Assembly (NCBI GenBank): GCA_009781855.1
Contig: WQUY01000003.1
Location: 1-61,011 of the forward strand
Reading direction: 5' to 3'
Source of the DNA: Oscillospiraceae bacterium
Lineage (GTDB): Bacteria; Bacillota; Clostridia; Oscillospirales; Oscillospiraceae
Length of the DNA: 61,011 nt
Below, piece by piece: positions 31,369 to 48,925 of this stretch (positions are counted from its first letter, which is position 1; every line of letters starts with the position of its first letter). The position numbers were made by a program, and so were the translations under genes. The notes under the pieces were generated by a model. The model did no database searches, was not told the origin of the DNA, and worked only from the letters and a program-made list of their open reading frames with translations.

Positions 31369-32124
31369 CTATCCGAGCACATCACTCATATCATATAATC
31401 TGGGTTTGGTTACCTCTGCCATGAATCTGGCGGCTTTGATAGCGCCGGTAGCAAAAACCTCGCGAGATGAAGCGGAGTGTCGCAACTCAATGACTTCGTG
31501 CGGCCCTGCAAAAATGACTTCATGTTCTCCGACAATAGTGCCGCCCCGAACAGCCGAAATCCCAATTTCGAAAGAACTGCGTGGCTCACGCGTGCGCTCC
31601 CGCTCATAGACATACTTTGCCTCATAAGGCAACGCAGACGATGCAGCATCGGCAAGCATCAAGGCGGTTCCGCTGGGTGCATCGACTTTACGCCTGTGAT
31701 GGCGCTCAACAATCTCAACATCAAACTCTTTGCCGAGCACTGTGCAGGCTCTCTTGATCAGGTCGGCCAGAAGGTTTATACCGAGCGACATATTGCCTGA
31801 GCGGAAAACAGGGAAACTCATTGCCGAACTTTCTATCAAGGCAGATTGCTCCGGTGCATACCCTGTTGCGCAAAGCACCAGCGGTATTTTCCTAATCTTA
31901 GAAAATGTCAGTAGGTGTTCAAGTGCTGAGGCGCTTGAAAAATCGACAAGGACATCTGCATCGCCTTTGAAATCAGCAGGATTCGAAAAAACAGGGAAAC
32001 CATCAAGTTGCCGGCTATCGATATCGAAACCGGCAACTATAGTAATATCTTTTTCACCTGATGCAATTGCGGTGACCGCCTTGCCCATAAAGCCGTTACA
32101 TCCGGATATGATAAGCTTTAGCAT
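31369..32124 (-). CDS. dapB: 4-hydroxy-tetrahydrodipicolinate reductase DapB
   Basis: A 251-residue enzyme. The nucleotide-binding start is LKLIISGCNGFMGKAV. The catalytic segment VEIVERHHRRKVDAPSGTALMLAD contains the conserved HH, R, K and SGT residues. It reduces HTPA to tetrahydrodipicolinate in the DAP/lysine pathway. It overlaps dapA by 7 nt. Confidence 0.93.
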   Translation of the reverse strand: MLKLIISGCNGFMGKAVTAIASGEKDITIVAGFDIDSRQLDGFPVFSNPADFKGDADVLVDFSSASALEHLLTFSKIRKIPLVLCATGYAPEQSALIESSAMSFPVFRSGNMSLGINLLADLIKRACTVLGKEFDVEIVERHHRRKVDAPSGTALMLADAASSALPYEAKYVYERERTREPRSSFEIGISAVRGGTIVGEHEVIFAGPHEVIELRHSASSREVFATGAIKAARFMAEVTKPRLYDMSDVLG

Positions 32125-33008
32125 GACAGAAGCCCCATTGCATCCAGAGATTTGCGTAGCTTCTCAAGATTTCCCGGCGCAAGCTCACAAAGCGGCATAC
32201 GTGGCTCACCGACATCCAAACCCATCAGGTTCAGCGCAGCCTTTACAGGCATTGGGTTAACTTCGATAAACAATTTGTCGATGAGGTCGAGATATTTGAG
32301 TTGTATCTCCGCACCGCGCTTGAAATCCCCCTCAAGGCAATATCTGGTCATATCGGCGACGGCCTGCGGCACTACATTTGCAAGTACCGAAATAACGCCC
32401 TTTGCACCAATAGACATCATAGGAACCGTATCCTCATCGTTGCCGCTCCATATATACAACTCGTCGCCGCATAAAGCCAGCGTTGATGAAATAAGCGAGA
32501 AATTACCGGAGGCTTCTTTGATGCCGTTTATGTTGGGGTGCTTTGCCAGCGTGACATAGGTCTCCACAGTAAAAGACATGCCTGTCCTACCGGGAACGTT
32601 ATATAGGATTACCGGTGTGTTTACTCTGTCTGCAACATAACTAAAATGTTTTATAAGACCGAGCTGAGAAGTCTTGTTATAATACGGAGTGACCAAAAGA
32701 AGTGCATCGGCGCCTGACTTTTCAGCCTCTTGCGAAAGGAAAAGCGCATCTTTTGTATCATTGCTGCCGGTTCCGGCGATGACTTTGACCCGGCCATCTA
32801 CATATTTGACACAATGGTCAGTTGTTTTGATGTGTTCTTCGAGCGATTGCGTTGAGTTTTCTCCGGTAGTTCCGCAAATAGTTATCGCGTCGATACCTCT
32901 ATCTATTTGGAAATCAATAAGTTCGTCAAGTTTTTTAAAATCTACTTCACCGTTGCGAAATGGAGTCACGATTGCTGTTGCTGCGCCTGTAAAAACCGGG
33001 GTTTTCAT
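32118..33008 (-). CDS. dapA: 4-hydroxy-tetrahydrodipicolinate synthase DapA
   Basis: A 296-residue TIM-barrel aldolase with FTGAATAIVTPF, ICGTTGEN, the Tyr motif ILYNVPGRTG and the Schiff-base Lys in INGIKEASGN. It condenses aspartate semialdehyde and pyruvate. ATG 33008 gives the standard N-terminus; an in-frame ATG 12 nt upstream sits directly on the AAAGGA site. It lies between asd and dapB. Confidence 0.93.
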   Translation of the reverse strand: MKTPVFTGAATAIVTPFRNGEVDFKKLDELIDFQIDRGIDAITICGTTGENSTQSLEEHIKTTDHCVKYVDGRVKVIAGTGSNDTKDALFLSQEAEKSGADALLLVTPYYNKTSQLGLIKHFSYVADRVNTPVILYNVPGRTGMSFTVETYVTLAKHPNINGIKEASGNFSLISSTLALCGDELYIWSGNDEDTVPMMSIGAKGVISVLANVVPQAVADMTRYCLEGDFKRGAEIQLKYLDLIDKLFIEVNPMPVKAALNLMGLDVGEPRMPLCELAPGNLEKLRKSLDAMGLLSC

Positions 33009-33140
33009 TCTATTAAACATCCTTTCAAGATACAGACAAAGGAGTCAGTGAACCAAACCCACTTGTTGAGGGCTGATATACTTGTTGCCGCAGAGATTGT
33101 GAGTATCCGGTTCGTAGTTACAAACTCCATTTGTCAATTG

Positions 33141-34226
33141 TTAGTTGCTTATGTACCCATCAGCACACAGAAGTTCTGCCAGTAGAACAGCCCCGCCGGC
33201 TGCGCCGCGCAATGTATTGTGGCTAAGGCCTATGAATCTGTAATCGTACTGTGTATCCGGGCGCAAACGACCGAGTGAAACGGCCATGCCGTTTTCAAGC
33301 ATACGATCCAGTTTTGTTTGAGGGCGATTTTCTTCTTCAAAATAATGAAGAAACTGCTTTGGCGCTGATGGAAGAGAAAGTATTTGTGGACGGCCTTCAA
33401 ACTCGCTCCAAAAACACTTGATTTCTTCAATTGTGGGTTTTTCGTTGAAAGCCATGAATACTGCGGCCATGTGGCCATCAGTCGCCGGAACACGGATACA
33501 CTGAGATGTGATTTGAAGCGAATCAGAAGGCACAATAGCTCCATCGGTTATCTTACCCCAAATTTTCAGTGGTTCCTGCTCAGACTTTTCTTCCTCGCCG
33601 CCAATGTATGGAATCACATTGTCCACCATTTCAGGCCATGTTTCAAAGGTTTTGCCTGCGCCGGAAATAGCCTGATATGTACATACAAGGGCGCGAGTGA
33701 GTCCGAAGCGTTCTTTGAGGGGATGAAGCGCAGGAACATAGCTTTGGATTGAGCAATTGGACTTGACCGCTATGAATCCGCGCCCCGTCCCCAATCGCTT
33801 TCGCTGTGCCTCAATTATCTCAAGATGCTCTGGGTTTACTTCCGGAATGACCATTGGAACATCAGGAGTCCAGCGATGAGCACTGTTGTTGGACACAACA
33901 GGGCATTCTGATTGCGCATAAGCAAGCTCAAGAGCCTTGATTTCGTCTTTTTTCATATCAACCGCAGAAAAAACAAAGTCAACGCGTTCTGCAATAGCCC
34001 GTATATCATTTTCAGCAGAAAGGACTTTAAGGCTCTTTGCAGATTCCGGTAAAGGATTGCTGATTTGCCATCGGCCTGAGACAGCCTCTTCATAGGTTTT
34101 GCCTGCAGAACGAGTGCTCGCGGCCACAACTTCAAGCTCAAACCATGGGTGATTATTTATGAGAGAAATGAAACGCTGACCTACCATTCCAGTAGCTCCA
34201 AGCACCCCAACTTTATACTTTTTCAT
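33141..34226 (-). CDS. asd: aspartate-semialdehyde dehydrogenase Asd
   Basis: A 361-residue dehydrogenase of the longer (archaeal/fungal-like) subtype. NADP-binding VGVLGATGMVGQRF, catalytic Cys in VKSNCSIQ and the later VPATDGHMAAV segment are present. It supplies aspartate semialdehyde to dapA downstream. GGAGG 8 nt before ATG 34226 fixes the start. Its leader contains an attenuator-like hairpin at 34249-34285. Confidence 0.92.
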   Translation of the reverse strand: MKKYKVGVLGATGMVGQRFISLINNHPWFELEVVAASTRSAGKTYEEAVSGRWQISNPLPESAKSLKVLSAENDIRAIAERVDFVFSAVDMKKDEIKALELAYAQSECPVVSNNSAHRWTPDVPMVIPEVNPEHLEIIEAQRKRLGTGRGFIAVKSNCSIQSYVPALHPLKERFGLTRALVCTYQAISGAGKTFETWPEMVDNVIPYIGGEEEKSEQEPLKIWGKITDGAIVPSDSLQITSQCIRVPATDGHMAAVFMAFNEKPTIEEIKCFWSEFEGRPQILSLPSAPKQFLHYFEEENRPQTKLDRMLENGMAVSLGRLRPDTQYDYRFIGLSHNTLRGAAGGAVLLAELLCADGYISN

Positions 34227-34248
34227 AACAATATCCTCCGGGAAAATC

Positions 34249-34285
34249 AAAAAAAATCATCAGCAGGACTAGTCAACCAGCTGAT
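34249..34285 (-). promoter_or_regulatory. terminator-like hairpin in the asd leader (attenuator?)
   Basis: Read on the minus strand: ATCAGC-T-GG, a 9-nt loop, CC-T-GCTGAT, then GA and eight T. It lies 22 nt before the asd start codon. The upstream gene on the other side is divergent, so no minus-strand gene needs terminating here. I could not recognise an L-box (lysine riboswitch) in the leader. Confidence 0.5.
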
Positions 34286-37635: not shown

Positions 37636-39066
37636 TTACGACAGCATCTTTTTGAGCAGCTCATTAACAGACTGAGGATCAGCCTTTCCGGCTGTTTTTT
37701 TCATAACCTGTCCGACAAGAAATCCAAATACTTTTTGGCTTCCGCCCCGATACTCCTGCACTGATTTCTCGTTTTCCGCAATCACCGCTTGTACGGCGGC
37801 TTCTAAAAGTCTGGTGTCACTGACCATTGCAAGCCCATTTTCTTCAACATAAGCCTTAGGGTCAATGCCCTGTTCATATACTTTCAATAGAAGCTTCTTA
37901 CCCACAGCACGATTGACTATTTTATCATCAACCAATGCGATTACCGCAGCAAACTTTTCACAGTCTATATCAATCTCATCATCGCTTACACCTGCCGTTT
38001 TAGATATACTCAGCAAATCACCCATAATCCAATTTACAACTTCTTTTGGCTTGCTTACATGCCCGAGTACTGCGTCAAAAATCCGGCATAGGTTCAGGCT
38101 GCTTGTGATGATTCTGCTGTCGTATTCAGGAAGCTGCAGCTGCATTGTCATGCGCTCAAATCTTACATGCGCCGGTTCAGGCAGTGTTTTGCGAACATGA
38201 TCAATCCACGCCTCATCAATGAAAACCGGCATGAGTTCGGGATTCGGGAAATAGCGATAGTCGGCGGCTTCTTCTTTTTCTCTCATGGAAAACGACATGC
38301 CGTTATCATCATCCCAGCGCCTCGTTTCCTGAACCAGTTTCTCAGCTTTGGTTTCCAGCGCATTGATGTGCCTCTGGGATTCAAATTCAATCGCCCGGGC
38401 TATTGCTTTTATTGAATTCATATTTTTTATTTCAGTCCGTGTCCCCAGTATATCGCTGCCCATCTCACGCACGGAAATATTCACATCACAACGCATCGAC
38501 CCTTCTTGCATCTTGCAATCTGAAATACCTGCGAAACTGAGCAACGACCGCAATTTGTCAAGATATGCGGTGACCTCATCAGCTGTGCGGAAATCAGGAT
38601 TCGAAACAATTTCAACAAGTGGAACAGATGTCCGGTTATAGTCTACTAAAGTCGAGCGCGTGCGTGGGTCATGTACAAGCTTTCCGGCATCCTCTTCGAT
38701 GTGGATTTGTTTCAGTGTAATGCGTTTTGAGCCTGCTTCCGTTTCAATATCCACCCATCCATTTTGGCATATGGGCGCAAAAAATTGGGTGATTTGATAT
38801 CCGGTGGGCAAATCCGGATAGAAGTAGTTTTTTTTGTCAAATGTCATAACAGCGCTAATCTCACTGTTTGTCACCAAAGCTGCAGCGATGCCCAACTCTA
38901 CCGCCCGCTTGTTTATCACTGCAGGCATTCCGGGCATTCCGGAACATGCCGGGCAAACATTTTCATTCGGGTCTGCCCCGAATTTGGCAGAGCATGAGCA
39001 AAAAAGCTTTGATTGCGTTGATAGTTCTACATGGACTTCAAGACCCATTACCACTTCATATTTCAT
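37636..39066 (-). CDS. gatB: aspartyl/glutamyl-tRNA amidotransferase subunit B
   Basis: A 476-residue kinase-amidotransferase subunit that looks intact. It has VMGLEVHVEL, the zinc cysteines CSCSAKFG...CPACSGMPG, the catalytic region KQIHIEEDAGKL, DYNRTSVPLVEIVS, EGSMRCDVNISV and ADYRYFPNPEL, with a normal C-terminal YqeY-like tail. It activates Glu or Asp on misacylated tRNA by phosphorylation and uses ammonia normally channelled from GatA. Here its partner GatA lacks catalytic residues. It overlaps gatA by 4 nt (ATGA). Confidence 0.94.
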   Translation of the reverse strand: MKYEVVMGLEVHVELSTQSKLFCSCSAKFGADPNENVCPACSGMPGMPAVINKRAVELGIAAALVTNSEISAVMTFDKKNYFYPDLPTGYQITQFFAPICQNGWVDIETEAGSKRITLKQIHIEEDAGKLVHDPRTRSTLVDYNRTSVPLVEIVSNPDFRTADEVTAYLDKLRSLLSFAGISDCKMQEGSMRCDVNISVREMGSDILGTRTEIKNMNSIKAIARAIEFESQRHINALETKAEKLVQETRRWDDDNGMSFSMREKEEAADYRYFPNPELMPVFIDEAWIDHVRKTLPEPAHVRFERMTMQLQLPEYDSRIITSSLNLCRIFDAVLGHVSKPKEVVNWIMGDLLSISKTAGVSDDEIDIDCEKFAAVIALVDDKIVNRAVGKKLLLKVYEQGIDPKAYVEENGLAMVSDTRLLEAAVQAVIAENEKSVQEYRGGSQKVFGFLVGQVMKKTAGKADPQSVNELLKKMLS

Positions 39067-40181
39067 ATATGCTTCCTATCTTTTAGTACCGTATTTAAAA
39101 CATCCTCCCGCCCAGGAGCAACCATCAGCGTGAGCGCATTTCCTCCGCACGGCATAGTCACTGCGGGCAAACCGCAAAGCCTCGAAAGGCACGGAAATGG
39201 AGCGGCAATAATATCACATTGGTCAAATTGCAGCGCATCTCTCATCAGCCGCCTGATGCGCATTGCTTTATCGTAGAGTCTTGTATAGTTTTCCTGTGAC
39301 AAAACCAAAGCGCCCATGAGTGCAGCCAGCTTAACCTCCAAGCCAAATGCCTCAGTACGGCTCTTTGTGTAGAGTTCTTGAAGGCTGGTATACTCTTTTG
39401 TTCTATATCCGAATTTAATACCATCATATCTGCTGATGTTATTTGAAAACTCCGCACAACAAAGAATTTGCATGACTGGGGCATATAGCTCGGAATATTT
39501 GAGTTCGATATCAACAATCTCAACATCGCCGAGCCGCTCCAGTAAATGTGAGCTTATCGAATCGAAATTGTCAGAAAACACGTTTTTTGGTAAAGCGATT
39601 CTTAGTTTATGTTCTGGATGTTCCATGGGTTGAGCGTTATCATTATCTAAGCGCTGCTCAGCCTGCATCACCCCGTCCTTATCATCAAATCCCGAAATGA
39701 TCGAAAGCGCACGAAAGCCCTCCACCAGAGACTTACATATAATGCCAATCTGATCCATTGACGCAACGGCTGGAACCAGTCCATATCGTGAAACTGTGCC
39801 ATAGGTTGGCTGAATATAATATAGTCCGAGCGCAGCCGCTTCCAAACTGACCGCTCCGGTATAGTCGTTACACAACGCAAATGCCGCAACGCCATCGGCA
39901 ACAGCGGCGGCGGCTCCAGAGCAGGAGGAGGTTTCAAGCGACGGAAAGAGTCCCCCGACGCCAAATTCATCCATGCGCATCTTGCCAAGAATCGTCACCC
40001 CGGCTGATTCGAGCTTCGTCACTGCGGTTGCATCGATTGGCGATATAAAATCTGCCAGCATTCTTGAACCGGCAGTCACAGGACTGCCTTTTTTCATAAT
40101 CGAATCTTCCAAAACAGCGCAATCTGCGCCACCAGAATGGTTTGTATCATATTTTGTAACGAAATAATCCAAACTTTTCAT
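39063..40181 (-). CDS. gatA: degenerate GatA-like amidase subunit, catalytic residues lost
   Basis: A 372-residue protein; GatA is usually about 485. It aligns without gaps to the GatA core (MDEFGVGG; IQPTYGTVSRYGLVPAVASMDQIG; RYDGIKFGYRTKEYTSLQELY). The catalytic Lys of the KDN motif is Glu25 (LEDSI), and the nucleophilic Ser of the DTGGS motif is Ala110 (NDYTGAVS); the cis-Ser equivalent may remain as Ser86. About 54 N-terminal residues, about 14 residues before the Ser motif, and the C-terminal loop carrying the glutamine-binding Asp are missing. The short N-terminus is real, because gatC ends 12 nt upstream. It is probably not a glutaminase; a scaffold or tunnel role is inferred. The frame is intact and within the gatCAB operon, so it is not a decaying pseudogene. 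Confidence 0.85.
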   Translation of the reverse strand: MKSLDYFVTKYDTNHSGGADCAVLEDSIMKKGSPVTAGSRMLADFISPIDATAVTKLESAGVTILGKMRMDEFGVGGLFPSLETSSCSGAAAAVADGVAAFALCNDYTGAVSLEAAALGLYYIQPTYGTVSRYGLVPAVASMDQIGIICKSLVEGFRALSIISGFDDKDGVMQAEQRLDNDNAQPMEHPEHKLRIALPKNVFSDNFDSISSHLLERLGDVEIVDIELKYSELYAPVMQILCCAEFSNNISRYDGIKFGYRTKEYTSLQELYTKSRTEAFGLEVKLAALMGALVLSQENYTRLYDKAMRIRRLMRDALQFDQCDIIAAPFPCLSRLCGLPAVTMPCGGNALTLMVAPGREDVLNTVLKDRKHI

Positions 40182-40193
40182 ACCTCACATTAT

Positions 40194-40469
40194 CTAATCC
40201 AGCGTTCCTGGGACTTGAAAATACCCATCATACTGCTCAGGTGCATTTTTCAAAATCTCATCACGAGACATCATTTTATCAGCGACATCCTCTCGCAAAA
40301 CATTTTGTAGCTGAGGCACCGAAACTAAAGGCAAAATGCCGCTTGTATCTACTGAGTCAAGCGCAGAAAAGCTTTCTTTCAAGCCTTCTATGTGCATAGC
40401 GAGTTGCTTTCGCTCCGCTTCGTCCAAATCAAGCATTGCCATAGCTTCGTATCCATTAATTTCAAGCAT
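40194..40469 (-). CDS. gatC: aspartyl/glutamyl-tRNA amidotransferase subunit C
   Basis: A 91-residue protein with the GatC pattern: LDEAERKQLAMHIEGLKESFSALDSVDTSGILPLVSV, then a conserved tail LREDVADKMMSRDEILKNAPEQYDGYFQVP. It is the belt that holds GatA and GatB together. It is first in the minus-strand gatC-gatA-gatB operon and diverges from the transhydrogenase genes. Confidence 0.88.
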   Translation of the reverse strand: MLEINGYEAMAMLDLDEAERKQLAMHIEGLKESFSALDSVDTSGILPLVSVPQLQNVLREDVADKMMSRDEILKNAPEQYDGYFQVPGTLD

Positions 40470-40529
40470 AGTCGATTCACCCTAAATTCATTTCTTTGTA
40501 AACACTGACATAAAGATATCATGAATTTG

Positions 40530-40558
40530 TTGACATGTCGATATAAAATAATTATTAT
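40530..40558 (+). promoter_or_regulatory. strong sigma-A promoter of the pnt operon
   Basis: TTGACA (40530-40535), 17 bp, TATTAT (40553-40558): near-consensus. Predicted transcription start is near 40565, about 50 nt before the GTG start. Confidence 0.75.
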
Positions 40559-40617
40559 TCTAGTTGTGTGGCGTAATTGATTTAACTCCGCATAATAATT
40601 CAGTTAGGAGAATGTCT

Positions 40618-41733
40618 GTGACTAAGGTTTTTCTGTGCAAAGAGACAACTAAGGATGAGACCCGTATTGCACTGGTGCCATCTGATGTCAAATCACTCGC
40701 CGCAATGGGGTACGAGATTGCGGTTGAAAGCGGCGCTGCGCAAAACATCGGCTATACCGATGGGGATTATGCCGCAGCGGGAGCAAAAATAGTCTCAACA
40801 CTCAACGAAGGATATGATTTTGCTGAAATCATCGTCCGCATAAACAAACCCGATAGCGTAGCAGGAATTAAGGAAAACACGTTGCATATAAGTTCATTCG
40901 ATGTCTTTAACGAAAAGGCATCTGTCCATGAATTTGCCAATGCAAAAATTTCAACTATTAGTCTGGAAATGATGCCCAGAACGACACTCGCACAAAAAAT
41001 GGACATCCAAAGCTCACAAGCCTCTCTTGCGGGTTATTATGCGATTATCCTGGCAGCGTCAAAGCTGCCTAAAATTTTCCCAATGATGATGACACCATCC
41101 GGAACCATATCTCCGGCCAAAGTGTTTATCATTGGCGTAGGTGTAGCCGGGCTTCAGGCCATAGCCACCGCAAAAAGACTTGGAGCGCGAGTAGAGGCAT
41201 TTGATACCAGGCCGGTTGTTGAAGAGCAGGTCAAATCTCTGGGTGCAAAGTTTGTGAAAATTGACCTGGGTGAAATGGGGCAAACAGAGCAGGGATACGC
41301 TAAAGAGCTGACACCGGAGCAAATCGAACTTCAGAGAAATGCACAAGCAAAAGTCTGTGCACAATCGGACATCGTTGTAACAACTGCTAAGGTGTTCGGG
41401 CGTAAAGCCCCACTATTGCTTACAAAAGATATGATCCAGCAAATGAAACCCGGTTCAATCATCATAGACATGGCCGTAAAGACAGGTGGTAATGTTGAAG
41501 GCTCCGACCCCGAAAAAGAGGTGTTCCTTGATAACGGTGTAAGCATAATAGGCGGAGACAGTCTCGAACGCTTTATTCCCAAGGATGCATCAAATATGTT
41601 CTCAGGCAATGTCTTTGCATTGCTAGAGCATTTTTGGGATGCGGAGAACAAAAAGTTTTGTCTCAATACCGAGGACGAAATAATCCAAGGTTGTCTGATC
41701 ACTGCTGACGGAAAAATATTACGCGCTTTATAA
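40618..41733 (+). CDS. pntAA: NAD(P) transhydrogenase alpha subunit part 1
   Basis: A 371-residue NAD(H)-binding domain I. It starts TKVFLCKETTKDETRIALVPSDVKSLAAMGYEIAVESGAA; the dinucleotide-binding motif is VFIIGVGVAGLQAIATAKRLGA; RVEAFDTRPVVEEQVKSLGAKF and GSIIIDMAVKTGGNVEGS follow. AGGAG lies 7 nt before GTG 40618; the upstream in-frame ATG at 40564 lies at the predicted transcription start. The final codons and stop TAA overlap the end of the dispersed repeat at 41727. The subunit is split, as in many bacteria. Confidence 0.92.
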   Translation: MTKVFLCKETTKDETRIALVPSDVKSLAAMGYEIAVESGAAQNIGYTDGDYAAAGAKIVSTLNEGYDFAEIIVRINKPDSVAGIKENTLHISSFDVFNEKASVHEFANAKISTISLEMMPRTTLAQKMDIQSSQASLAGYYAIILAASKLPKIFPMMMTPSGTISPAKVFIIGVGVAGLQAIATAKRLGARVEAFDTRPVVEEQVKSLGAKFVKIDLGEMGQTEQGYAKELTPEQIELQRNAQAKVCAQSDIVVTTAKVFGRKAPLLLTKDMIQQMKPGSIIIDMAVKTGGNVEGSDPEKEVFLDNGVSIIGGDSLERFIPKDASNMFSGNVFALLEHFWDAENKKFCLNTEDEIIQGCLITADGKILRAL

Positions 41734-41845
41734 TCAAGCGAAGAGCGCGTCGCGACCGAGCCGAGCTCGGTCATGACCGAACGAGCGCAGATTACACGAG
41801 GTTCAAAACCGTGCGGTCTCTGCCCTGGGGTTAATACCTTTTATA
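41727..41845 (-). repeat. dispersed structured repeat, short copy
   Basis: About 119 bp, the reverse complement of 3789-3945 with high similarity. It lacks the ~38 bp that lie between GGCAGAG and GGCAAAG in the long copy, as expected for a deletion between short direct repeats. It fills most of the pntAA-pntAB gap, and its outer end TTTATAATC includes the pntAA stop codon. Confidence 0.85.
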
Positions 41846-41913
41846 GTGCCTGCACCAAAATCACAAATTAATGTTACACAAACCCCTAATCCCTAAAAAT
41901 AAGGAGTGGAAAT

Positions 41914-42207
41914 ATGGATACAATCCTTCTGATATTTATTTTTGTTATCGCTGCATTCCTTGGAAAAGAGCTGATTTCCAAAGTTCCATCGCAACTTCAT
42001 ACGCCCCTGATGTCTGCAACAAATGCCATATCGGGAATCACCGTCGTCGGAGCATTCGTCGCACTTGCCGCATCTGCTGGGGGCGGCACATTGGGTATGG
42101 TTCTTGCGTTTATAGCTATTGTGCTTGCGACCATAAACCTCGTTGGTGGATTTATGGTAACAGAGCGTATGCTTGAAATGTTTCGCAAAAAGGAGGATAA
42201 GAAATAA
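41914..42207 (+). CDS. pntAB: NAD(P) transhydrogenase alpha subunit part 2
   Basis: A 97-residue membrane protein with three hydrophobic helices and the family segment TPLMSATNAISGITVVGA, followed by LATINLVGGFMVTERMLEMFRKK. It forms part of the proton channel domain II. AAGGAG precedes the ATG, and it shares a base with the pntB start. The 180-nt gap from pntAA is largely the dispersed repeat. Confidence 0.93.
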   Translation: MDTILLIFIFVIAAFLGKELISKVPSQLHTPLMSATNAISGITVVGAFVALAASAGGGTLGMVLAFIAIVLATINLVGGFMVTERMLEMFRKKEDKK

Positions 42208-43616
42208 TGATTATCAACCTTGCTTATATCATCGCGTGTGTACTTTTCATATTGGGCATAAAAAATCTGAACAAACCCTCTACTGCGCGTAAAGGTAACA
42301 TGCTTGCTGCATTGGGTGTGCTGATTGCTGTGGTCGCAGTATTTTTTGAAAATGATGTCGTCCAATCATGGAATGCGGATAATTTCATGCAAAACGGTTA
42401 TGTCTGGATCATCATTGCATTGGTTATCGGCTCAATCATAGGCCTTATCTGGTCGAAAAAAGTGAAAATGACCGGGATGCCGGAATTGGTTGCGTTGTAT
42501 AACGGCTTCGGTGGACTGGCCTCAGCCTTGGTTGCTTTTGTGCAGTTTCTCCAGGCACCCGAGGGCAACGATGCAATAGCCTCTGTCGCCATTGGCATAG
42601 CCATCTTCATCGGTGCTCTTGCATTTTCCGGCTCAATGCTTGCGTGGGGTAAGCTTTCAGAAAAAATTACAGGGCGGGCGATTGTATTTAAAGGACAAAA
42701 CGCCTTGAATCTGCTTTTACTACTTGTTGTGATTGCAACCATTGTTATTTATGCCCTGCCAGGCATAGATTCATCAATAAGGTTCACCGCAATCATTGTG
42801 CTGTCTGCGGTCTCGCTTGTGTTTGGTATAACCTTTGTCTTGCCGATAGGCGGGGGAGATATGCCGGTGGTTATTTCCTTGATAAACAGCTTCACAGGCC
42901 TCGCAGTGGCGGCGGCAGGCTTCATCATTTCCAACACAGTGCTTATCGTAGCCGGGTGTTTGGTCGGTGCATCAGGCACTATTTTGACACTAATCATGTG
43001 CAAGGCGATGAATCGTTCTGTCGGCAATCTCCTATTTAGCGGCTTTGGCGCAGTTGATTCCGGCTCCGGAAAAGGCCCCGGAGCGGAGCCAAAATCCATC
43101 TCTGCTGAGGACGCTTATCTGATTTTGGAAGCGGCCCAATCTGTCGTTTTCATTCCCGGTTATGGTATGGCTGTTGCACAGGCGCAGCATGTCGTCAAGG
43201 AACTTGCCGAAAAGCTTGAAGCAAACGGTGCAGAGGTAAATTATGCAGTCCACCCGGTTGCAGGCAGAATGCCGGGGCACATGAATGTGCTTTTAGCGGA
43301 AGCGGACATTCCGTATGAGCAACTGAAAACGATGGACGATATGAACCCGGTCATGCCCACTCAGGATGTGGCCATTGTCATCGGGGCAAACGATGTGGTC
43401 AACCCAGCTGCTGAAACAGATCCTTCCTCACCAATTTATGGTATGCCCATAATCAAGGCATATCAGGCAAGAACCGTGTTTGTGCTCAAGCGCGGCAAAG
43501 GGCGTGGCTTCTCAGGCATTGAGAATGAGCTGTTTTCAATGCCCAACACATTGATGATTTATGGCGATGCCAAAGGCACCATATCGTCGCTTTCAGGTGA
43601 GTTTAACGCGGAGTGA
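42207..43616 (+). CDS. pntB: NAD(P) transhydrogenase beta subunit
   Basis: A 469-residue protein with about eight or nine N-terminal membrane helices (including GGADMPVV-like GGGDMPVVISLINSFTGLAVAAAGF) and a C-terminal NADP(H)-binding domain III (VVFIPGYGMAVAQAQHVVKELAEKLEANG, VNYAVHPVAGRMPGHMNVLLAEA, VIGANDVVNPAAETDPSSPIYGMPI). With PntAA and PntAB it couples the proton gradient to NADPH formation. The operon ends at the terminator repeat at 43656. Confidence 0.93.
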   Translation: MIINLAYIIACVLFILGIKNLNKPSTARKGNMLAALGVLIAVVAVFFENDVVQSWNADNFMQNGYVWIIIALVIGSIIGLIWSKKVKMTGMPELVALYNGFGGLASALVAFVQFLQAPEGNDAIASVAIGIAIFIGALAFSGSMLAWGKLSEKITGRAIVFKGQNALNLLLLLVVIATIVIYALPGIDSSIRFTAIIVLSAVSLVFGITFVLPIGGGDMPVVISLINSFTGLAVAAAGFIISNTVLIVAGCLVGASGTILTLIMCKAMNRSVGNLLFSGFGAVDSGSGKGPGAEPKSISAEDAYLILEAAQSVVFIPGYGMAVAQAQHVVKELAEKLEANGAEVNYAVHPVAGRMPGHMNVLLAEADIPYEQLKTMDDMNPVMPTQDVAIVIGANDVVNPAAETDPSSPIYGMPIIKAYQARTVFVLKRGKGRGFSGIENELFSMPNTLMIYGDAKGTISSLSGEFNAE

Positions 43617-43652
43617 TTTCGTGTAGTGCTTTTTAGTGTAATGTAAATCGTG

Positions 43653-43699
43653 AAAAAAGTCTGCATGGGCTCAACGCATTTGATCCATGCAGACTTTTT
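43653..43699. terminator. repeated bidirectional terminator, copy 2
   Basis: The 42-nt core at 43656-43697 is the exact reverse complement of 37562-37603, loop included (GCTCAACGCATTTGAT). A and T runs flank both sides. It lies between convergent pntB and the carB-dapF gene. Confidence 0.85.
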
Positions 43700-43747
43700 C
43701 GATTGATTTTTAAGTGCGTAGCAAGAGCATGCAAATCACTTATGTGC

Positions 43748-46700
43748 TTACATCTCGATTACACCGTCAAAACATTTTGTCGCTTCACCTGTCATAAATA
43801 CGCGCTCGCCGTCATAACGAATGACCAAATCTCCGCCACCCATCTTCACCAGAATGTCAGTGTTCTTTTGACAAAAGCCATTCTCAACCGCTGCAATCGC
43901 AGCAGCACAGGCACATGTTCCGCAAGACTGTGTCTCACCATTGCCGAGCTCCCATTGGCGAAGCATCAAGGAGGTTTCGTTTATGACTTGTACAAACTCG
44001 ACATTTACACGGTCGGGGAATATCGCGTCGTTTTCAAATGCCGGGCCAATTTTGTCAAGGTCAAGTGTATGCACATCGTCACTAAATACAACGCAGTGGG
44101 AGTTGCCGATATTCAGCAGCGTAACATTGTGTTTTTTGTTGCCGATTTTTATTGGCTTGTTAAGGATTTTATCGCCTTTCAACGTTGCCGGGATGCTTTC
44201 AGGGCTAAAGTCCACATAACCCATATCTGCGGTGATTTTTGAGACGATGTTGCCGGTTGTGGAGACTTGCAGCCTGCGGACAAACCCATCAGTTTCAATG
44301 TGGACTTCGGGTTTGCGCACGATGCCCTCATCGTAGAGGTATTTGCAAACGCAAGACAGGGCGTTTCCACCTACGCCGCCGCAGGTTCCGTCCATGTTGT
44401 AAATACTTATCTTCGCATCGGCCTTTTCAGATGGCTCAATAAGTACCACGCCATGTCCACCAATACCCAAGTGACGGTCGCTGAGCTTAATGCTCAGACT
44501 TTCCGGGTCTGTGATTTTTTTGTAATCAAGACAGTTGAAATAAATATAGTCATTGCCGCAGGCTTGCATTTTCGTAAATTGAAGATGGCGTTTGCCTGCA
44601 CGCATGTTATTGATGTCAACAAGCTCAATTGTAGTATCCCAATACTTACTCATCAGGCAATCTGCAATCGCATCTGCCGTATCAACGGATGTCAAGCATG
44701 GGATTGAACGCTCAACAGCCTTACGCCTCATCTTCACGCTGTCTCTGTCGGGATCGCGCCCTTTCGTTGAGGTGGAAATCACATAGCTGATTTTCCCACT
44801 CTCGATGAGTGGCAAGATATTATTCTCGCTTTCATAAATTTTGCCGACAGAAACGGTTTCCAGTCCAACGCTCTTCAGCTTTTCGGCAGTGCCGCCAGTT
44901 GCGTATAGGCTAAAGCCCAATTTGGCAAACTTATGTGCAACATGAATCATCTGCGCTTTATCCTGATCTTTAACAGAGATGAAGATACCGCCTTTTTTGT
45001 TCATCTTATATCCGGCTGCACGCATACCCTTATAAAGCGCCTCTTCACGAGTCGAAGCGATGCCGAGCACCTCGCCGGTTGATTTCATTTCAGGGCCAAG
45101 CTGTGTATCGACATTACCCAGTTTCTCAAATGAGAATACCGGAACTTTGACCGCGACATAAGGCGGTTGCTTTGCAATCCCTGTGCCAAAGCCCATGTCC
45201 ACCAGTTTTTCACCAAGCATACAACGTGAAGCCAGCTCAATCATCGGTACGCCGGTCACTTTGCTTATGTACGGAACAGTACGAGATGAGCGCGGATTGA
45301 CTTCTATGACATAGAGCTCCCCATCACTCAACAGATATTGAATGTTGACTATCCCACTGACTTCCAATGCCATTGCAAGACGCTTGGTGTGGTCGATTAT
45401 TTTTTCGCACAAATAATCATCGACATTCCATGCAGGATAAACGGCGATGGAGTCCCCAGAGTGGACGCCCGCGCGTTCAACATGCTCCATGATTCCCGGA
45501 ATAAGGATGTCTGTGCCGTCGCATATCGCATCAACCTCAAGCTCGGTGCCGATAAGATATTTATCAATGAGAATCGGATTTTCTATTCCTTGTCTGAGAA
45601 TTATTTCCATGTACTCACTGATATCTTCCTTTGAAAAAGCGATGATCATGTTTTGCCCGCCAAGCACATATGAAGGACGCATCAAAACCGGATATCCGAT
45701 ACGCGCAGCCACACTGATGGCCTCTTTTTCTGTCATCACCGTGCCGCCCTCAGGCCTGAGGATTTTCAGGTCTTCAAGCAGTGCGTCAAAACGCTCACGG
45801 TCTTCGGCTGCATCAATGCTGTCTGGTTGTGTGCCAAGTATTTTAATGCCAATGCTTTTGAGGTAAGATGTGAGTTTAATTGCTGTTTGTCCGCCGAATG
45901 CGACAACCACTGCATACGGATTTTCTGTCTTGATTATGTTGTGGACATCTTCGCCTGTCAGCGGGTCAAAGTACAGTCTGTCGGCTGTGTCATAGTCGGT
46001 GGAGACTGTCTCAGGATTGTTGTTGGCAATAACCACATCATAACCGGCAGCTTTGAGCGCCCAAACACAATGTACAGAAGCGTAGTCAAACTCAATACCT
46101 TGTCCGATGCGGATTGGCCCCGAGCCAAACACGATGACGGTTTTCTTATCTTTGCCATGATTTTTCATTTGCTTGGTCTTGATTTCAAGCGCCTCGTTTT
46201 GCTCGTCAAATGTAGAATAGAAATAGGGGGTTTCTGCTGCAAATTCAGCGGCGCAGGTGTCAACCATCTTATATACCGGAGCAATCGGATTTTTGACTTT
46301 CTTGCCTGATAGCCGCTCAATCACAAGATCAGGCCATCCCATGCGTTTTGCTTTGAAATATGTCGCCTCGTCAAAGTTTCCACCACTGAGGGTCTTTTCC
46401 ATCTGAACAAGATTGTTGAGCTTGGTTAAAAACCATTCGTCAATTTTATTTATTTCATAGATTTCGTCAATGGTGATGCCTCTGCGTAATGCCTCATACA
46501 CAACAAACAGGCGTTCGTCTGTGCTGTCATGCAGGCGCTTTCTGATTGTCTCGGTGTCCTGCGTTTCCAAAAACTTATCGATCAGGCAGTCCTTACCCAG
46601 TTCTGCCCCTCTGACCGCTTTCATGATGGCTTCTTCAAATGTTGTGCCAATCGCCATGACCTCGCCGGTGGCTTTCATTTGTGTGCCCAATGTGCGTTTT

Positions 46701-47809
46701 GCATAAACAAATTTGTCAAATGGGAATTTCGGGAATTTGACAACAACATAGTCTAGTGCAGGCTCAAAACAGGCGCTTGTTTGCTTGCCGGTCACTGCAT
46801 TTTTGATTTCATCCAATGTGTATCCAATGGCAACCTTTGTCGCCACTCTGGCAATGGGGTATCCGGTAGCCTTTGAGGCAAGAGCCGATGAGCGAGATAC
46901 TCTGGGATTAACTTCTATTACTGCATACTCGAAGCTGTCAGGATGGAGTGCAAGCTGAACATTACAGCCACCCTCAACGCCCAGAGAGCATACGATATCA
47001 AGACTTGCTTTGCGCAGCATCTGATATTCTTTGTCGGCAAGCGTTACAGCCGGTGCGATAACGATACTGTCACCGGTATGGACACCGACCGGGTCAATGT
47101 TTTCCATTGAACATACTGCGACAGCATTGTTTTGCGTATCGCGCATGATCTCAAATTCTATTTCTTTCCAACCCGCGATGGATTGCTCTACCAGAATCTG
47201 GCCGATGGGGGACATGCGTATGCCGTTTCCTGCGATTTCGGTGAGTTCTTCCGGATTGTGGGCAATGCCGCCACCGGTGCCGCCGAGCGTAAATGCCGGA
47301 CGAATAATGCAAGGGAAGCCAATGACTTCGTTGACAAACTTGTGTGCAGCGTCGAGGTCAGTAACAACCTTTGAGGGAATAACAGGCTGACCAATTTCAA
47401 TCATTGTATCTTTGAAAATTTGTCTGTCCTCGGCCTTGTCGATTGTAACAGGATTTGCGCCAAGCAGCTTCACATTGTGCTTTTCCAAAAATCCTGATTT
47501 TGCCAGTTGCATGGAAAGCGTCAACCCCGTTTGCCCACCAAGCGTAGAGAGCAGACTGTCGGGTTTTTCTTTCTTTATGATTCTTTCAAGAACGGGTATA
47601 GTCAGCGGCTCTATGTATATTCTGTCAGCCATTTGATTATCTGTCATAATGGTTGCAGGGTTAGAGTTGACGAGCACTATTTCGATGCCCTCTTCGCGCA
47701 ATGCGCGGCAAGCCTGAGTGCCTGCATAGTCAAACTCAGCAGCCTGCCCAATGACTATAGGGCCGGAGCCTATAACAACAATTTTCTTAATATCCTTATT
47801 GAGCGGCAT
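43748..47809 (-). CDS. carB: carbamoyl-phosphate synthase large subunit fused to a DapF-like domain
   Basis: A 1,353-residue fusion. Residues 1-~1070 are a complete CarB: VVIGSGPIVIGQAAEFDYAG, first ATP-grasp (RPAFTLGGTGGG, DPVGVHTGDSI, IEVNPRVSRSSALASKATGYP), second ATP-grasp (RPSYVLGGQNM, VHSGDSIAVYP, IEVNPRSSRTVPYISKVTGVP) and the MGS-like allosteric domain (FAKLGFSLYATGGTAEKLK). After a short linker (AGKRH), residues ~1076-1353 are a diaminopimelate epimerase fold: FTKMQACGNDYIYFN, GNSHCVVF, SCGTCACAAA. In that domain the MCGNG motif is VGGNA (first catalytic Cys is Gly1147) and WERG is WELG, so epimerase activity is doubtful. The start overlaps carA by 14 nt. The DNA shows one continuous frame across the junction. 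Confidence 0.93.
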   Translation of the reverse strand: MPLNKDIKKIVVIGSGPIVIGQAAEFDYAGTQACRALREEGIEIVLVNSNPATIMTDNQMADRIYIEPLTIPVLERIIKKEKPDSLLSTLGGQTGLTLSMQLAKSGFLEKHNVKLLGANPVTIDKAEDRQIFKDTMIEIGQPVIPSKVVTDLDAAHKFVNEVIGFPCIIRPAFTLGGTGGGIAHNPEELTEIAGNGIRMSPIGQILVEQSIAGWKEIEFEIMRDTQNNAVAVCSMENIDPVGVHTGDSIVIAPAVTLADKEYQMLRKASLDIVCSLGVEGGCNVQLALHPDSFEYAVIEVNPRVSRSSALASKATGYPIARVATKVAIGYTLDEIKNAVTGKQTSACFEPALDYVVVKFPKFPFDKFVYAKRTLGTQMKATGEVMAIGTTFEEAIMKAVRGAELGKDCLIDKFLETQDTETIRKRLHDSTDERLFVVYEALRRGITIDEIYEINKIDEWFLTKLNNLVQMEKTLSGGNFDEATYFKAKRMGWPDLVIERLSGKKVKNPIAPVYKMVDTCAAEFAAETPYFYSTFDEQNEALEIKTKQMKNHGKDKKTVIVFGSGPIRIGQGIEFDYASVHCVWALKAAGYDVVIANNNPETVSTDYDTADRLYFDPLTGEDVHNIIKTENPYAVVVAFGGQTAIKLTSYLKSIGIKILGTQPDSIDAAEDRERFDALLEDLKILRPEGGTVMTEKEAISVAARIGYPVLMRPSYVLGGQNMIIAFSKEDISEYMEIILRQGIENPILIDKYLIGTELEVDAICDGTDILIPGIMEHVERAGVHSGDSIAVYPAWNVDDYLCEKIIDHTKRLAMALEVSGIVNIQYLLSDGELYVIEVNPRSSRTVPYISKVTGVPMIELASRCMLGEKLVDMGFGTGIAKQPPYVAVKVPVFSFEKLGNVDTQLGPEMKSTGEVLGIASTREEALYKGMRAAGYKMNKKGGIFISVKDQDKAQMIHVAHKFAKLGFSLYATGGTAEKLKSVGLETVSVGKIYESENNILPLIESGKISYVISTSTKGRDPDRDSVKMRRKAVERSIPCLTSVDTADAIADCLMSKYWDTTIELVDINNMRAGKRHLQFTKMQACGNDYIYFNCLDYKKITDPESLSIKLSDRHLGIGGHGVVLIEPSEKADAKISIYNMDGTCGGVGGNALSCVCKYLYDEGIVRKPEVHIETDGFVRRLQVSTTGNIVSKITADMGYVDFSPESIPATLKGDKILNKPIKIGNKKHNVTLLNIGNSHCVVFSDDVHTLDLDKIGPAFENDAIFPDRVNVEFVQVINETSLMLRQWELGNGETQSCGTCACAAAIAAVENGFCQKNTDILVKMGGGDLVIRYDGERVFMTGEATKCFDGVIEM

Positions 47810-48899
47810 TTGTACAGCCCCCTTCCATCAATGTTTTGAATTTTTCGAGTATTTCTTCATTTGGGTCGAATTGTATTGAAAACGCAGGAATGCCCTTATA
47901 TTCTATGCCCTCGCATGTTCCGTCATTGACGTTTTCATGGCTCATAACTGCATTACTTTTCAGGGAGCCTGGAACCACGGCATATCCGTGATTTTGTGTT
48001 GAAACAAAAGCACGAGTGGAATTTACTTCCTTTACGGCCTGATTTGCACCCCTGTGTCCAAAATGAAGTTTCTGTGTTTTTGCACCATGGGCGAGTGCAA
48101 GCAGTTGATGCCCCAGTCCAACGGCGAAAATGGGCACGTCTTTTTTACAAAGTGCCTTTATTTCACTAATAATCTTTGAATTTTCGGTAGGGTCGCCCGG
48201 CCCACCGGAAAGTGCAACGCCGCATGGCTTTCTATCTATGATTTTTTGCGCAGTTTCGTCAAATTTTGCAATCGAAACATTGAAACCATATTGAGTAAGT
48301 ACTTCAGCGAGCCTGTATGCACCGCCAAAATCCCAAACAACTACATTGAATTTGGAATTTTCGGATAGCGCCGCTGCATTTCCTTTCAATTGTTTATTTT
48401 CAATTTTTAATGCTCCATTTGCACCACAAGCTGCTTCTACAGCTCCGGTCACCTTATACCCTTTAAGCTTAGCCAGCTGATCTTTGGTAAGCTCAGGTGT
48501 TTTAGAAATAATGGCATTCATTGTTCCGTGTTCGCGAATCTCCCTTGTCAGCTTGCGGGTGTCTATGCCAAATAAGCCCGGAATCTTCTTTTTGCGTAAA
48601 AAAGAATCAAGATTTCCTTCGCTTCTGAAATTCGAAGGCTCTTGACACCAATCTCTAACAATATACGCTTTTAAATGTGCCGCTCCCGGTCCGAAATCCT
48701 CGCTGATGGCACCATAATTGCCAATCAATGGGAATGTCTGCAAAACAATCTGTCCATAGTACGCAGGGTCGGATAGGGTTTCGAGATATCCGGTCATGCC
48801 TGTTGAGAAAACGAGTTCACCGATGGCTTCTCCATCGTAACCGAACGCTTTCCCCTTGAAAACAGCTCCGCTTTCAAGTATTAAATATAAGTCTTGCAA
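47796..48899 (-). CDS. carA: carbamoyl-phosphate synthase small subunit, glutaminase triad lost
   Basis: A 367-residue protein with a complete CarA fold: FSTGMTGYLETLSDPAYYGQIV, FGIDTRKLTREIREHGTMNAI, ALSGGPGDP and FGHRGANQAV...TQNHGYAV. The class I amidotransferase nucleophile motif GICLGHQ reads AVGLGHQ (Cys to Gly, near residue 261). The C-terminal HPE reads DPN in FSIQFDPNEE (His to Asp, Glu to Asn). All three triad positions are therefore substituted and it should not hydrolyse glutamine. TTG 48899 follows GGAGG at 8 nt; a TTG 15 nt upstream lies over the ribosome site. An ammonia-dependent synthase, as in vertebrate CPS I, is inferred. Confidence 0.92.
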   Translation of the reverse strand: MQDLYLILESGAVFKGKAFGYDGEAIGELVFSTGMTGYLETLSDPAYYGQIVLQTFPLIGNYGAISEDFGPGAAHLKAYIVRDWCQEPSNFRSEGNLDSFLRKKKIPGLFGIDTRKLTREIREHGTMNAIISKTPELTKDQLAKLKGYKVTGAVEAACGANGALKIENKQLKGNAAALSENSKFNVVVWDFGGAYRLAEVLTQYGFNVSIAKFDETAQKIIDRKPCGVALSGGPGDPTENSKIISEIKALCKKDVPIFAVGLGHQLLALAHGAKTQKLHFGHRGANQAVKEVNSTRAFVSTQNHGYAVVPGSLKSNAVMSHENVNDGTCEGIEYKGIPAFSIQFDPNEEILEKFKTLMEGGCTNAAQ

Positions 48900-48925
48900 A
48901 GTTGTCACCTCCAATTATTCGCCAA

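Follow-up and report, generated by a model that had tools for sequence, protein, structure and literature searches.

What becomes of a glutamine-dependent enzyme whose glutaminase subunit has lost the residues for hydrolyzing glutamine? The question is posed twice by a window of 61,011 nucleotides (the whole stretch of DNA that was analyzed), which corresponds to one entire contig (C3) of the draft genome of an Oscillospiraceae bacterium (2.4 Mb, 134 contigs, 92% complete). Across positions 37636-48914, the window carries a minus-strand gatC-gatA-gatB operon, a plus-strand transhydrogenase and, again on the minus strand, carA with a carB-dapF fusion gene. GatA of the tRNA-dependent amidotransferase GatCAB and CarA of carbamoyl-phosphate synthetase (CPSase) have both lost their catalytic residues, and their partners GatB and CarB are conserved. 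We consider it probable (about 0.7), judging from sequence comparison, that GatCAB and CarAB of this lineage are ammonia-dependent synthetases and represent a stage in the recurrent loss of glutaminase functions, one gene after another, among its relatives. The genes in question are as follows.

37636..39066, minus strand: gatB, transamidase subunit, 476 amino acids
39063..40181, minus strand: gatA without the catalytic Lys (pseudo-GatA), 372 amino acids
40194..40469, minus strand: gatC, 91 amino acids, heading the gatC-gatA-gatB operon
43748..47809, minus strand: carB-dapF fusion, 1353 amino acids, with CarB at residues 1 to about 1055
43748..44614, minus strand: DapF domain of the fusion, about residues 1066-1353
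47796..48914, minus strand: carA, 372 amino acids, TTG start

Below, G000 denotes the genome of the window, other G numbers the genomes of relatives and L numbers their loci. The Amidase and class I GATase searches accepted E values up to 0.001, and the genome searches passed a first filter of the search tool.

Catalytic sites of GatA and CarA

Alignment to canonical GatA places Glu25 of the window protein in the column of the catalytic Lys (AVLEDS vs VKDN), Cys87 in that of the cis-Ser and Ala110 in that of the nucleophile Ser (CNDYTGAVS vs SDTGGSIRQ). In a control scan of GTDB genomes, in which the best 80 of 582 GatA loci were analyzed, the Lys and three Ser columns were intact in 72, and the other eight were of the Lys-less type. 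At least 97% conservation among 71 canonical GatAs defines 131 columns; the window protein retains 63 of these and has gaps at 15. Its score of 229 bits with the GatA model TIGR00132 falls below the cut-off of 481, yet this is its best NCBIfam model. Consistently, a profile built from 12 Lys-less GatAs finds GatA chains of GatCAB as its best PDB matches. A free-standing amidase was rejected on these two grounds. The pseudo-GatA type has conserved residues of its own. The predicted structure of the window protein has a mean predicted local distance difference test score of 72.5, and residues 28-50, immediately past the position where the Lys was lost, form one of its stretches of low confidence. 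A Pfam Amidase search found no second amidase in G000, within its 92% completeness.

The other two subunits encoded by the operon are readily recognizable. GatB retains 95 of the 110 columns that are near-invariant (at least 97% conserved) in 67 canonical GatBs and passes the NCBIfam gatB model with 540 bits against a cut-off of 315; GatC, which we add to the earlier gene list, matches the Pfam GatC model with 63 bits.

In CarA, comparison with the Escherichia coli protein reveals that the Cys, His and Glu of the glutamine amidotransferase (GATase) domain are replaced by Gly, Asp and Asn, respectively. The CPSase small-chain domain, adjoining carB, is retained (PF00988, 162 bits), and the protein scores 342 bits with TIGR01368, whose cut-off is 307. 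This carries a warning for annotation, because the protein passes a glutamine-hydrolyzing model despite its lost nucleophile. Beyond CarA, no class I GATase was found in G000 at the above threshold and completeness. The CarB part of the fusion looks intact (1489 bits with NCBIfam). All frames of the gat and car genes are open. Thus, the claims of the initial annotation that GatA and CarA have each lost their nucleophile and further catalytic residues, that GatB and CarB retain their motifs and that the frames are intact hold by alignment; nor did a second complete gatA or carA turn up in G000 within its 92% completeness.

As to what GatCAB may be for, G000 encodes both glutaminyl-tRNA synthetase (GlnRS) and asparaginyl-tRNA synthetase (AsnRS), genes that the initial annotation had singled out for a search, and the proteins are 53% and 57% identical to their E. 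coli counterparts, respectively. Searches of this draft genome with E. coli AsnA and AsnB (residues 1-300) as queries found neither. With GlnRS present, GatCAB is probably not needed for Gln-tRNA, and the failure to find AsnA or AsnB leaves a gap in asparagine synthesis that would be closed by GatCAB. Taken together, this gene content points to tRNA-dependent synthesis of asparagine, with ammonia as nitrogen source, as the most likely function of GatCAB. The gene order in related loci is in line with such a role: aspS stands directly before gatC-gatA-gatB in L162, L164 and L165 (aspartyl-tRNA synthetase, AspRS, confirmed by Pfam), precedes gatA-gatB in L205, with a GatC-like frame between them identified by eye only, and at L016:2510-3958 (G059) AspRS and GatC form one fused protein encoded before a Lys-less gatA and gatB. 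Among 15 loci matched in relatives, 11 have a tRNA-Asn with U1-A72 and the remaining four are partial matches; the pattern matched none in G000. Partial tRNA-Asn matches with a different 5′ part (L324, L325, L332 and L334 of G002 and G006) are possibly attachment sites of mobile elements.

Mechanistically, GatB would amidate Asp-tRNA(Asn) using free ammonia, in a complex with GatC and a GatA that is structural and does not hydrolyze glutamine; this would be the likely route of the cell to asparagine. CarB would form carbamoyl phosphate from free ammonia as well, CarA being retained for a structural or regulatory role.

Glutaminase losses among the relatives

The initial annotation had asked whether related genomes share the substitutions. 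Lys-less GatA, adjoining a conserved GatB, is encoded in 14 of the 19 genomes of our genus sample (G000-G004, G006-G010, G012-G014 and G016); the Lys is absent from all 14 proteins and the nucleophile Ser from 12, being retained in G012 and G013. As for the other five genomes, G005 and G018 have only canonical GatA, the sole amidase of G017 is a distant one that retains both the Lys and the Ser, and the Pfam Amidase search found no match in G011 and G015. For G008 and G009, the closest pair and the sole one close enough for the estimate, the ratio of nonsynonymous to synonymous substitution rates (dN/dS) amounts to 0.22 in GatA and 0.09 in GatB, and GatA is thus under purifying selection in this pair. 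In the GatB tree, the 20 rows for proteins adjoining Lys-less GatAs group in a single clade (100/100 support), separate from the nine canonical GatBs, which include those of G003, G014 and G016. A second, related type of Lys-less GatA occurs in G019, G046, G047, G059 and a goat-omasum genome (L205); its members in G046 and G047 retain Ser at the nucleophile column. Canonical GatA genes lie about 5 kb or less from a match to glutamine synthetase on G003:C13, G014:C1, G044:C1 and G037:C33, and in G044 an AsnRS/AspRS-like gene is located between the two.

CarA displays various degrees of loss. The matching proteins of G004 and G016 are also dead, with Asp or Gly replacing the Cys and Ala or Asn the His, and in G007 CarA consists solely of the 139-residue N-terminal domain, whose frame extends into the start of CarB, the GATase domain being missing. 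No CarA was found before CarB in G001, G012, G018 and one of the two G014 copies. G002, G003 and G010 encode a more distant CarB with no CarA alongside, and none was identified in the class I GATase search. That search found nothing at all in G010 and two matches each in G002 and G007, one per genome being a C26 peptidase.

Searches for GuaA, PyrG, PurL and glutamine synthetase covered 16 genus genomes (G000-G015). GuaA without its GATase domain, recognized as stop-closed frames aligning from E. coli residues 211-221 onward, is present in nine of the 16, and full-length GuaA in three (G005, G011 and G014), with G011 and G014 carrying both forms; no GuaA was found in five, including G000, and the G008 frame is undecided because a contig end cuts it. 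PyrG was found in three of the 16. Among the 13 PurLs (none was found in three genomes), the GATase Cys is intact in six (G000, G003, G004, G005, G011 and G012) and replaced by Gly in seven. The his operons of G002, G003, G004 and G010 read hisB-hisA-hisF without hisH, and the E. coli HisH query found no match in these stretches; G003 has a second HisF-HisH pair adjoining GdhA (L266:3230-4943), apart from its hisH-less his operon. Full-length GlmS was found in six of 14 genomes (5 of 13 genus members and the family member G021) and not in the other eight, G000 among them, and G005 and G018 encode a sugar-isomerase-only protein alongside full GlmS. The glutamine loop of PurF differs in seven of eight aligned proteins, and five of the eight carry Lys or Asn at the position of Arg73. 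A search of 14 genomes for the N-terminal part of GltB gave no match. As a control, G021 (100% complete) encodes, adjoining CarB, a CarA that retains Cys, His and Glu, as well as GlmS and AsnA; it has no amidase, and its further class I matches are GuaA, PyrG and HisH as judged by frame length and neighbours. The initial annotation had also suggested inspecting the catalytic triads of other amidotransferases; losses were indeed detected in GuaA and PurL of relatives, and in G000 itself the PurL site and the PurF Cys are intact.

The habitat of several relatives may be relevant. Of the eight named Lys-less loci (among the best 80 of 582), six derive from termite-gut assemblies with the codes Th196, Emb289, Lab288 and Cu122, and the submitters labeled four of these as Oscillospiraceae, one as Defluviitaleaceae (L164) and one as Spirochaetes (L163); the other two are L205, from goat omasum, and L162, with source not stated. 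According to an excerpt of PMC7024585, Th196 and Emb289 stand for the humus feeders Termes hospes and Embiratermes neotenicus, and Lab288 and Cu122 for the soil feeders Labiotermes labralis and Cubitermes ugandensis. Ammonia is high in the hindguts of soil feeders, as stated in a portion of PMC4675541. We infer that ammonia-rich termite hindguts, from which several relatives come, may have been the ecological cause of the serial losses.

Nitrogen donor and competing explanations

The odds are, in our estimate, somewhat better than even for a broader version of the ammonia-dependent explanation, namely a lineage-wide ammonia economy. Ambient ammonia would have replaced glutamine in the synthesis of Asn-tRNA, carbamoyl phosphate, guanosine monophosphate (GMP), histidine, phosphoribosylformylglycinamidine and possibly glucosamine 6-phosphate; the Lys-less GatCAB would use ammonia only, and intermediates of the process would be visible as dead subunits, trimmed subunits and deleted genes.

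A number of observations weigh against ammonia as the general donor. The PurL glutaminase site of G000 is intact, PurF retains its Cys in G000 and the seven relatives aligned with it (8 of 8), and a glutamine synthetase match is present in all 16 genus genomes searched, so that no wholesale switch occurred in G000; the possibility that all amidotransferases of G000 are dead was rejected on account of PurL and PurF. G003, G014 and G016 encode canonical GatA besides the Lys-less one, and G012 has an AsnB-like match. PyrG-like sequences occur in G016 and G018, outside the 16 genomes searched for PyrG. CarA with Cys and His is encoded in G004, G006, G012 (Glu lost), G014, G016 and G018. The divergent intact proteins of G004 and G006 (L149:5925-7004 and L151:3035-4132, respectively) are encoded near genes for non-ribosomal peptide synthetases, with condensation domains nearby in both genomes and a phosphopantetheinyl transferase nearby in G004, the only one scanned for it; no CarB match was found in the fetched stretches around them. 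A simple housekeeping copy was rejected in view of this context, although these proteins could still serve CarB in trans. Furthermore, the reported ammonia content of termite guts (69-900 umol per g dry weight) is unrelated to feeding guild in PMC4675541.

A further complication is the DapF domain, which forms the C-terminal end of the CarB fusion. When aligned to relatives, its first catalytic Cys is Gly in the window, G001, G004 and G016, Ala in G021, and Cys in G007 and one G014 copy. DapF is not an amidotransferase, and the decay in the block is therefore not confined to glutaminases; an ammonia-using diaminopimelate dehydrogenase might conceivably compensate for the loss. The asd, dapA and dapB genes are located at 31369-34250 of the window. 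The remaining genes of the block, between the gat and car operons, encode the transhydrogenase.

40564..41733, plus strand: transhydrogenase alpha subunit (PntA-like)
42207..43616, plus strand: transhydrogenase beta subunit (PntB)

A link between this enzyme and the supply of NADPH for ammonia assimilation, raised in the initial annotation, is speculative. More generally, because the assemblies are drafts and the searches passed a first filter, absences are not proof, and the main doubts concern the draft genomes, possible mixed bins, the canonical copies in some relatives and the decay of DapF.

Could the dead subunits instead be scaffolds, with ammonia delivered to GatB and CarB in trans by a separate, unlinked glutaminase or asparaginase? 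In archaea, GatD supplies ammonia to GatE, and glutamine is still available in G000, as implied by glutamine synthetase and the two apparently intact glutaminase sites of PurF and PurL. However, no other Amidase or class I GATase was found in G000, where asparaginase-type partners were not searched for, and one shared supplier would need to serve all the unrelated enzymes affected in the relatives; we regard this arrangement as unlikely. A new job for the GatA-GatB complex, related to tRNA or another RNA and involving no amide transfer, appears quite unlikely. It would accommodate the conserved residues peculiar to pseudo-GatA and the presence of GlnRS and AsnRS, with which GatCAB is strictly needed for neither Gln-tRNA nor Asn-tRNA, but in relatives aspS adjoins the operon, with a fusion to gatC in one case, and the asparagine gap would be left unfilled.

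Decay of the whole block, with GatCAB and CarAB becoming dispensable through import of asparagine, pyrimidines or arginine, would be consistent with the lost DapF Cys, with the greater variability of GatA than of GatB among relatives and with the failure to find PyrG in 13 of the 16 genus genomes. Against it stand the open frames, the retention of Lys-less GatA in 14 of the 19 genomes, the dN/dS values of the one pair and the high conservation of GatB and CarB, and we deem it very unlikely. The explanation to which we give the least credence is an artefact of draft assembly, whereby canonical gatA and carA would reside on contigs absent from the bin and some relatives would be mixtures of species. 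The 92% completeness of G000, the different placement of G018 in the AsnRS and GlnRS trees and the presence of both versions of an enzyme in several relatives would fit such an artefact, but Lys-less GatA is the only one in G002 and G004 (98% complete), G012 (96%) and G010 (92%), all with at most 3% contamination, and the dead PurL and the canonical GatA of G014 are encoded on one contig.

Collectively, the proposal of the initial annotation that ammonia replaced glutamine as nitrogen donor stands in part. The spread of Lys-less GatA, its selection in one pair, the conserved GatB and CarB and the parallel losses in relatives argue for ammonia-dependent GatCAB and CarAB, and the replacement is not wholesale in G000, nor do all relatives lack canonical GatA or intact CarA.

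Comparison with known systems

Textbooks present glutamine as a near-universal carrier of reactive nitrogen, the ammonia being channeled between active sites. Single ammonia-using steps have precedents, and for the Lys-less GatCAB and the serial loss we found no published description: our searches of the open-licence PubMed Central (PMC) literature yielded none of a GatCAB without glutaminase residues, a dead CarA or a lineage-wide serial loss of glutaminases. Whether ambient ammonia by itself can relax the need for glutamine would be seen from close relatives that dropped glutaminases from different enzymes, and such a series would also show the order of loss and what a dead GatA or the N-terminal half of CarA in G007 still does.

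The GatA of Bdellovibrio bacteriovorus is taken to be an ordinary glutaminase, unlike that of G000, which is devoid of the Lys and both Ser. In other respects the two systems are similar: as described in an excerpt of PMC4206432, a non-discriminating AspRS and GatCAB of Bdellovibrio form asparagine on tRNA, and G000 likewise has gatCAB, GlnRS and AsnRS, with no AsnA or AsnB found. Related enzymes that differ in having a glutaminase partner are also encountered in the NAD synthetase family, the typical single-domain form of which uses free ammonia physiologically, according to parts of PMC3376133. The same parts argue that the single-domain form is ancestral, whereas here the glutaminases seem to have been lost secondarily, in many pathways of one lineage. 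The ATP-pyrophosphatase parts of GMP synthetases use external ammonia in vitro, as reported in an excerpt of PMC10526850, and the stand-alone ATP-pyrophosphatase part of the relatives resembles the archaeal two-subunit enzyme covered there; archaea, however, keep a separate GATase subunit, and no class I GATase was found in G010. The sugar-isomerase-only protein of G000 may be akin to GlmD, a glucosamine-6-phosphate deaminase (NF041128), which is its best NCBIfam match, at 105 bits far below the cut-off of 580.

A counterpart of the window CarA is found in vertebrate carbamoyl phosphate synthetase I, which keeps a Cys-less glutaminase domain beside an ammonia-using synthetase. The window enzyme differs in being bacterial and composed of two subunits, in having lost the His and Glu as well, and in having a relative, in G007, that lacks the GATase domain altogether; what it shares with the vertebrate enzyme is a Cys-less glutaminase domain retained beside a putative ammonia-using synthetase.

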